Below are positions 10,063 through 18,435 of a DNA stretch of 39,471 nt, in pieces. The notes under the pieces are model-generated. The model did not search any database. It was not told the origin of the DNA and was given only the letters and a program-made list of their open reading frames with translations. The stretch lies in NCBI GenBank assembly GCA_002779995.1, contig PEWX01000034.1, positions 1 to 39,471 on the forward strand, read 5' to 3'. The position numbers and the translations under genes are program-made. Positions within the stretch are counted from its first letter, which is position 1, and every line of letters starts with the position of its first letter. This DNA comes from Piscirickettsiaceae bacterium CG07_land_8_20_14_0_80_44_28. GTDB taxonomy: Bacteria > Pseudomonadota > Gammaproteobacteria > Thiomicrospirales > Thiomicrospiraceae.

Positions 10063-10566
10063 TTAATTGAAAACGGTTTGGTGGGTTAAACGATTTAAAA
10101 TTAGGGTTAACAATGGCCAAATAAATATGGCTACCAAGGGTTCTAGCCAATAATAATAGTAAGCGTTGCCAAGTAATTGCGGGGTAAAAATAAACCAGCT
10201 CATAATCTGGAAAACCAGCAGATAACTGCCGATAATGACGGATTGTTGCCATAAAGGATACCCTTTGAAGCGAAGGCGAGAGCGTAACATTAAAAATGTC
10301 GTGGTGAGAAAAATGAGACTGTGAGAGCCTAAAGGCGTGTTTAAGGCAGTATCAAACGCCAACCCCAATATAAAAGCCGACAATAAGTGGCTTTTATAGA
10401 GAATTCTTGAGGTCCAAAAAAAGAGAGTCAGCAAGGTTAGGTAGGGCATAAACTGAATATCGAAACTTAATATCATCATATTGTCGATGACAATAGCAAA
10501 GAGGTAACTTAAAAAGAATAGCCACTTAATATCATGAATGTGGAGTGAAAATACTTTTTCAGTCAT
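10063..10566 (-). CDS. mreD: Rod-shape determining protein MreD
   Basis: MreD is an inner-membrane elongasome component of poorly defined activity. The 167-residue product has about five hydrophobic helices and the FILGLAFDTALNTPLGSHSL segment matching the family's G-x-x-x-D motif region. I start it at the ATG at 10566, which overlaps the mreC stop by 8 nt and suggests coupling; a GTG at 10575 would add three residues. Confidence 0.92.
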   Translation of the reverse strand: MTEKVFSLHIHDIKWLFFLSYLFAIVIDNMMILSFDIQFMPYLTLLTLFFWTSRILYKSHLLSAFILGLAFDTALNTPLGSHSLIFLTTTFLMLRSRLRFKGYPLWQQSVIIGSYLLVFQIMSWFIFTPQLLGNAYYYYWLEPLVAIFIWPLLTLILNRLTHQTVFN

Positions 10567-11395
10567 GTTTAACACCCGATTTCCGCGAAAGAATAAGGAC
10601 TTTTTGTGAGCGTGTTAAGTCAGCAATGGGTTCAGCGCTGATTTTATAGTAAGGTTCTCCGCTCATGGTTTCTATTTGAGAAATGGTTGCAGCAGGTCGT
10701 CCTTCTGGGAAAACTTCCCCCAGGCCTGAGGTCTCAAGTGTATCGCCAATTTTGATAGAACTTGAAGAGGGAATAAATAATAAGGAGAGTTGTTCATGTC
10801 CGATACCATTCAAAATACCACGCTGTCCTGTGCGTTGTATTCGAACGGGTACTTGTATTTCGGGGTCGGTAATCAATTGAGCGCGACAGGACGTTGGGGT
10901 AATAGAGGTGATTTGTCCAATTAAGCCTTTTGCATCTATGACGCTTTGATTAATGGAAATGCCATCGAGAGAGCCTTTATTTAAGATAACATATTGGGCA
11001 AAAGGGGTTTGGCTGTAAGCAATGACCGATGCAATTTGCACCTCCGTCGATTTAAATTGGCTTGCCGTTCCTAAAAGCTTGTTTAAACGCTCGACTTCAA
11101 GTTGAAGTTTTTTCATCTGCTGTTGCTGAGCCTTGAGCAATAAATTTTCCGTTTTTAACCGGTGGTTTTCCGCACTGAGCTGGTTGGAGTGGGTGTAATC
11201 CTGTTGGATCCACAGGTAAATATCGAGTGGCAGTGCAGCAATCCTTTCAACAGGTTCAATGGTTGCTGTCAGCAGGTTGCGAAAATTGGAGAGTGCATTG
11301 GTATAGTGATCTGACACCATTAGCGCGATGCTGAGAATAAAAAGCAGCAGAAAATAACTGCCTTCTTTTTGAGGGGATGGTGTCGAGAAGTTAAT
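10559..11395 (-). CDS. mreC: Rod-shape determining protein MreC, probable ATT start
   Basis: MreC is the bitopic elongasome protein whose periplasmic coiled coil and beta domains activate PBP2. The first ATG (11320) gives 253 residues beginning MVSDHYTNAL and lacks the inner-membrane anchor. Extending 25 codons to an ATT at 11393-11395 restores it: a short tail, then FLLLFILSIAL leading into SDHY, the MreC pattern. The frame is closed by a stop just upstream, and no ATG, GTG or TTG lies between. A strong Shine-Dalgarno (GAGAGGT) ends 5 nt before the ATT. The product would have 278 residues: coiled coil about 65-105, then the beta domains. Part of the Shine-Dalgarno is paired in a 7-bp hairpin. 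One near-palindrome copy lies at 10720. Gene identity is certain; the ATT start is inference. Confidence 0.88.
   Translation of the reverse strand: MNFSTPSPQKEGSYFLLLFILSIALMVSDHYTNALSNFRNLLTATIEPVERIAALPLDIYLWIQQDYTHSNQLSAENHRLKTENLLLKAQQQQMKKLQLEVERLNKLLGTASQFKSTEVQIASVIAYSQTPFAQYVILNKGSLDGISINQSVIDAKGLIGQITSITPTSCRAQLITDPEIQVPVRIQRTGQRGILNGIGHEQLSLLFIPSSSSIKIGDTLETSGLGEVFPEGRPAATISQIETMSGEPYYKISAEPIADLTRSQKVLILSRKSGVKHD
10720..10729. repeat. CCAGGCCTGG-like palindrome, one mismatch (in mreC)
   Basis: CCAGGCCTGA. On the coding strand it reads TCAGGCCTGG and encodes the SGLG of TSGLGE. Confidence 0.5.
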
Positions 11396-11401
11396 AACCC
11401 A

Positions 11402-11424
11402 CCTCTCTTGTTAAGTTAGAGAGG
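11402..11424 (-). promoter_or_regulatory. Hairpin sequestering the mreC ribosome-binding site
   Basis: On the minus strand CCTCTCT and AGAGAGG form a 7-bp stem with a 9-nt loop in the mreB-mreC gap. The 3' arm is the mreC Shine-Dalgarno, and the proposed ATT start follows after GGGTT-type spacing. No T-tract follows, so it looks like a translational control structure rather than a terminator. Folding was judged by eye. Confidence 0.55.
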
Positions 11425-11454
11425 ATAGGCTTGAAATATTTCACGACAGTCATT

Positions 11455-12799
<1,345 letters not shown>

Positions 12800-17880: not shown

Positions 17881-18435
17881 ATCGCAGTTAGAAGAGGTCG
17901 TGGAAGACCACAGCAACCAGAAGTTCCAAAGGATAATATCAACGGTAATATTTCTGCCAAAGAAGTTCGTTTAATAGATGCAGAAGGCGAGCAAAGAGGG
18001 GTCGTTCCAATTGATGAAGCCCTTGCAGTAGCTAAGGAAGCTGAGCTGGATTTAGTTGAAATTTCTGCAAAATCAAATCCCCCTGTTTGTCGTGTCATGG
18101 ATTATGGAAAATTTGTTTATCAGCAACAAAAGAAAAAACACGAAGCCAAAAAGAAGCAAAAACAGGTTCAGGTTAAAGAAGTAAAATTCCGTCCCGGTAC
18201 TGAGCAAGGGGATTATGATGTTAAAATGCGGAATTTGATGAAATTTCTTGATAATGGCGATAGGGTTAAAGTCACTATTTGGTTTAGAGGTCGTGAAATT
18301 ACCCATAAAGAATTGGGTATGCGCATGTTAGAGCGCGTTCGTGAAGATATCAAAGAAGTTGCTTCTGTTGAGCAGATGCCAAAAATGGAAGGTCGTCAAT
18401 TGCAAATGATGGTCGCTCCGACAAAAAAACAATAG
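17881..18435 (+). CDS. infC: Translation initiation factor IF-3, ATC start
   Basis: IF-3 monitors start-codon and fMet-tRNA pairing on the 30S subunit and rejects non-canonical starts. The 184-residue frame runs from ATC at 17881, eight nt after AGGAG. The N-domain includes [18 protein letters not shown], then [22 protein letters not shown] and [13 protein letters not shown]; the linker is Lys-rich, and the C-domain carries [16 protein letters not shown]. Only ATC fits: an in-frame stop lies at 17863 and the first ATG (18097) is 72 codons into the conserved protein. Rare starts are characteristic of infC and underlie IF-3 autoregulation (ATT in E. coli). Confidence 0.95.

Follow-up and report, generated by a model that had tools for sequence, protein, structure and literature searches.

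To our knowledge, translation starts at AUU, AUC, or AUA, which we call AUH starts, are documented in only a handful of bacterial genes; infC, which encodes initiation factor IF3, is the textbook example, and Binns and Masters reportedly found in 2002 that an AUU start limits the translation of pcnB in E. coli (as cited in PMC13009471 and PMC1780047). In Streptomyces, sigR starts at GTC with an extensive ribosome-binding site (RBS) and is repressed by IF3; the GTC or GTT start and the RBS are conserved in 34 species, they keep one operon product below its partner, and the control of initiation is of the same kind as that of E. coli infC (PMC5472188). In S. aureus, ccpN (AUA) and cvfC1 (AUU), whose starts were mapped by Ribo-Ret, carry extended Shine-Dalgarno (SD) sequences and in poor medium reach ~10% of the yield from AUG (PMC13009471).

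A search of the open-access literature, which omits most subscription papers, returned no report of a non-canonical mreC start; relative to that literature mreC is new as an AUH-start gene, and infC, pcnB, sigR, and ccpN are its closest known counterparts. As far as sequence can tell, mreC carries every mark of this kind of gene: no in-frame canonical codon, a conserved near-cognate start, a boundary of coding constraint at that start, and a strong SD. Like mreC, infC has an obligate, widely conserved AUH start with a strong SD and no canonical alternative, and it uses ATC in the same window (the whole 39,471-nucleotide stretch analyzed here); unlike mreC, it encodes the discriminating factor itself and so forms a feedback, whereas mreC would be a downstream target without feedback, encoding a cell-shape membrane protein as the second cistron after mreB. 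The likeness to pcnB lies in the AUU start, but pcnB is a single gene described in E. coli. The sigR gene shares a non-canonical start and an extensive RBS with mreC but differs in using GTC rather than an AUH codon, in being confined to Streptomyces, and in that its IF3 effect is experimental. The ccpN and cvfC1 genes resemble mreC in their AUH starts and extended SD sequences; they are genes of Firmicutes, ccpN encodes a transcriptional repressor, and their starts were mapped by Ribo-Ret, in contrast to the mreC start, which was located by sequence alone.

The mreC frame lies on the minus strand of the window, open from 11410 and closed at its upstream end by a TAA stop (11413-11411), and the first canonical start codon (ATG, GTG, or TTG) that it contains is codon 26, an ATG at 11320-11318. 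Within the frame, an ATT at 11395-11393 is preceded by GAGAGG; the motif GAGAGGT (11407-11401) leaves a gap of 5 nt to this codon. A sequence-only reading had proposed this ATT as the probable start, with GAGAGGT 5 nt ahead of it and with an extension of 25 codons that is free of canonical starts, closed by a stop, and able to supply a membrane helix absent from the form beginning at 11320. Both the extension and the position of the motif stand as described, and hydropathy bears out the helix: the strongest hydrophobic segment, GSYFLLLFILSIALMVSDH (mean hydropathy, 1.62), lies in the extension and is the sole strong one, and the ATG-start form has no segment above 0.98. The product matches PF04085 (MreC) with an E value of 1.1e-40, position 14 of the TIGR00219 profile aligns with MreC residue 16, which puts profile position 1 near the ATT, and in the class-wide alignment the conserved first residue of MreC corresponds to the ATT codon. 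The barrel domain, the N-terminal membrane helix, and the location of the gene between mreB and mreD identify it as mreC. With no canonical codon before codon 26 and with ATT or ATC at the aligned position in relatives, the proposed start is strongly supported, and the mreC of the window is predicted to be translated from AUU. The features of the locus are collected in Table 1.

Table 1. Positions of the mreC locus and its control genes in the window
Feature	Positions	Strand	Basis
mreC coding sequence, ATT to stop, 278 aa	10559..11395	-	PF04085, TIGR00219, class-wide alignment
mreC ATT start codon	11393..11395	-	aligned ATT/ATC in relatives; coding constraint begins there
mreC codons 2-26 (tail in the cytoplasm and membrane-spanning helix), ending at the first canonical ATG	11318..11392	-	substitution pattern, hydropathy
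mreC Shine-Dalgarno AGAGAGGT	11401..11408	-	start region/16S tail duplex, -12.3 kcal/mol
hairpin enclosing the mreC Shine-Dalgarno	11396..11431	-	7-bp and 6-bp helices; leader fold
leader frame, 20 codons, ATG 1 nt past the mreB stop, TAA overlapping ATT (ATTAA)	11453-11391	-	
mreB, preceding mreC in the operon, ATG start	11455..12501	-	PF06723, E 1.3e-142
mreD, ATG start; GTG 3 codons upstream	10063..10566	-	PF04093, E 5.5e-13
infC (IF-3), ATC start at 17881 behind AGGAG	17881..18435	+	TIGR00168, E 3.3e-76

Substitution patterns place the onset of protein-coding constraint on mreC exactly at the near-cognate codon. Across 20 close pairs, 57 of 66 changes in the six codons upstream of AUH are non-synonymous (86%), against 19/67 in codons 2-10 (28%), 27/113 in the helix (24%), and 88/422 beyond it (21%). 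Between the window and its sister species, all five codons before the ATT differ non-synonymously, and the stretch from the ATT to the first ATG holds 11 synonymous differences and 1 non-synonymous difference. The median position of the next canonical codon after AUH is codon 16, within the helix. In 11 of 109 obligate cases, meaning AUH starts whose frame lacks a canonical codon from the upstream stop down to codon 7, the AUH follows that stop either directly or after a single codon. These data bear directly on the choice that standard gene callers would make, namely, translation from the first canonical codon (11320) to give an MreC without a membrane anchor. That start would forfeit the transmembrane helix, the 25 codons upstream of it are under protein-level constraint, and the ATG itself is not conserved, being ATT in L021 and L022 and TTG in L024; we reject it and consider it hardly credible. 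Equally implausible is a frameshifted or misread gene, an idea that draws on a GTG in AGAGAGGTGGGTT that is out of frame by one base and would come into frame, in this species only, if GGG lost a G. The AUH codons of relatives have unrelated upstream bases, often with a stop one codon before (L010, L012, L016, L021, and L047), and these upstream sequences refute a frameshift for the class. Sequencing error, a concern of the earlier reading, is excluded because the same arrangement recurs in the 90%-identical sister and in dozens of independently sequenced relatives.

The genome of the window belongs to Hydrogenovibrio, and among its named relatives Hydrogenovibrio sp. SC-1 is the closest, with 90% identity in MreC. 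Throughout Hydrogenovibrio the aligned codon of mreC is ATT or ATC; relatives with ATG at that position, which the sequence-only reading had named as evidence that would speak against it, are absent from the genus. In the family as a whole, 49 of 60 mreC loci have obligate AUH starts (the aligned codon is ATT or ATC and has no canonical alternative), and ATG starts are confined to another genus (L057 and L059-L061). In one draft genome (L062; G066:C1), mreC is interrupted by stops and distributed between two frames, through either a faulty assembly or a broken gene.

The pattern extends well beyond the family. Each species in our class sample was represented by a single genome and most families by one or two, and among 122 mreC loci from other families of Gammaproteobacteria, 60 have obligate AUH starts (31 ATC, 17 ATT, and 12 ATA) and 38 have canonical ones (27 ATG, 8 GTG, and 3 TTG). 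In four further loci the AUH is closely followed by a canonical codon, 19 (about a sixth) are ambiguous in that a canonical codon occurs only further upstream, and in 1 no mreC start was found. Family and class together give 109 obligate AUH starts in 182 loci; the clearly classified loci, including the family and 20 extra loci, comprise 125 AUH, 35 AUG, and 14 GUG/UUG starts. Three loci from 6-Mb genomes with a Pseudomonas-like MreC (L244-L246) have AUH starts, with a stop three codons before the ATC, and ATG occurs in the enteric-like sequences L257-L259 and L262 and in E. coli (L113); the labels Pseudomonas-like and enteric-like were assigned from sequence, E. coli alone being named. Outside the class (L226-L243), canonical codons are available near the mreC start in all loci. 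In L154, mreC has neither a canonical start nor an AUH at the usual codon, and an ATC stands three codons further upstream, directly after a stop. It is nearly certain that an AUH start of mreC has been kept in most of the gammaproteobacterial lineages sampled. The AUH codon is nonetheless dispensable for mreC, as enteric-type lineages live with AUG, and the ATG of E. coli mreC may be the reason why the trait went unnoticed. The statement of the sequence-only reading that very few genes use ATT needs widening: mreC has such starts across much of a class.

The neighbors of mreC supply controls. Starts are canonical in 92 of 92 mreB loci and in 58 of 58 mreD loci, and infC serves as a positive control in the same window because it is the textbook AUH gene; its AUH start is present in most of the relatives read. 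The window and its sister have ~36 genes in common over 40 kb, and of these only mreC and infC show conserved coding before the first canonical codon; a third case listed in the comparison is an antisense shadow of mreB. The first canonical codon of infC in the window lies 77 codons into the frame, and ordinary gene callers would truncate its IF-3.

The AUH starts go together with strong SD sequences. The median SD duplex energy is -8.5 kcal/mol for AUH starts versus -3.0 kcal/mol for ATG starts (P = 4e-5, a raw comparison that ignores kinship; a phylogenetically corrected comparison on the MreB tree had too few supported independent pairs), and an SD weaker than -4 kcal/mol accompanies 7% of AUH starts versus 56% of ATG starts. 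Such a strong SD may merely rescue a bad codon that arose by drift, in which case the AUH start would be real yet regulate nothing, its inefficient codon having become fixed early in the history of the class. The third base indeed changes freely between T, C, and A, with 66 codon changes on the tree against 22 changes between AUH and canonical starts, and enteric-type lineages have ATG. Yet a single third-base mutation restores ATG, and AUH has persisted for a very long time in the majority of families and throughout Hydrogenovibrio; mreB and mreD of the same operon never use AUH. We consider a start without a role unlikely. GUG and UUG are in general far commoner starts than AUH, and their much lower frequency in mreC suggests a property that AUH codons alone possess; an excess of AUH over GUG and UUG would be unexpected if any weak start sufficed.

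The SD of the window is enclosed by a hairpin, which the sequence-only reading had described as a perfect 7-bp helix with the SD as its 3' arm. That helix is real (CCTCTCT, 11424-11418, with AGAGAGG, 11408-11402), and an outer helix adds 6 more pairs (11431-11426 with 11401-11396) past one bulged base, reaching the base before the ATT. The mreC leader has a folding energy of -23.8 kcal/mol (z = -4.55 versus shuffles), and the 7-bp helix on its own is not unusual (P = 0.16). Helices of 7 to 11 bp over the SD occur in L001, L003, L004, L005, and L008-L010 (combined P = 7.6e-6 for species that are related and not independent), that is, in about half of the genus and in at least two arrangements. 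In L008-L010 the helix is a long-range one of 10 bp with a loop of ~50 nt, and its arms differ between species yet still match (GGTTCGGCTC/GAGTCGAACC in L008 and L009; GGTCTGACTC/GAGTTAGACC in L010). No helix over the SD was seen in L002, the closest relative, or in L006, L007, and L025, and SD occlusion as a class-wide trait is rejected, pairing being equal to that of shuffled leaders. The hairpin claim holds for about half of the genus but not for the closest relative or for the class, and because of both we read the hairpin as a local addition rather than as the core of the system. Two loci from another genus of the family, L037 and L014, have GC-rich hairpins in the mreB-mreC gap (ACGCCC..GGGCGT and GGCGGCG..CGCCGCC), which may be attenuators and as such also reduce the expression of mreC.

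A leader frame runs through the same hairpin, and mreC in this genus might instead be coupled mainly to mreB, by reinitiation at an ATG 1 to 2 nt past the mreB stop and translation of 20 to 25 codons through the hairpin to a stop on the mreC start. Such a frame is found in all five related species, L001-L005, and its TAA overlaps the ATT (ATTAA) in L001-L003. Its peptide is not conserved, however, other Hydrogenovibrio lack it, and class-wide such frames are as frequent as in shuffled leaders (11 seen versus 10.9 expected); we regard coupling of this sort as improbable in the genus and reject it as a general trait, since the class-wide count is that of chance. The leader frames of L002-L005 are of the same kind as that of the window, with unrelated peptides.

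We favor instead an AUH start, kept through most of the Gammaproteobacteria sampled, that goes with low, IF3-sensitive synthesis of MreC relative to MreB, a statement to which, taken whole, we assign a probability of roughly 80%. The initiator tRNA would pair with two of the three AUH bases, leaving a 30S complex that IF3 would destabilize, and the strong SD would offset the weak codon in part; the net effect would be that MreC is made below MreB from a shared mRNA and that its synthesis responds to the activity of IF3. Where a lineage has moved to AUG, as E. coli has, comparable restraint would tend to come from a weak SD, and in several Hydrogenovibrio species the hairpin over the SD would act as a further brake. 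The lower yield of MreC, its dependence on IF3, and its stoichiometry as a selected trait we infer from infC, pcnB, sigR, and ccpN. A coupling of MreC to the level of IF3, which the sequence-only reading had suggested, is plausible by analogy, and we hold a dosage role of the AUH start linked to IF3 to be an even bet. Somewhat more doubtful is the wider proposal that mreC and infC form a gammaproteobacterial AUH set under IF3 control, in which the capacity for wall elongation would follow the state of the initiation machinery and, through it, growth, and from which lineages leaving AUH would have taken AUG with a weak SD or other restraints.

For genome annotation, callers restricted to ATG, GTG, and TTG truncate mreC in many genomes and lose the membrane anchor of its product. 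For the biology of the class, a core cell-shape gene keeps an AUH start in most of the sampled lineages of a major bacterial group, E. coli, the usual model, sits in the ATG minority for mreC, and the dosage of MreC and its link to IF3 and growth become directly testable.
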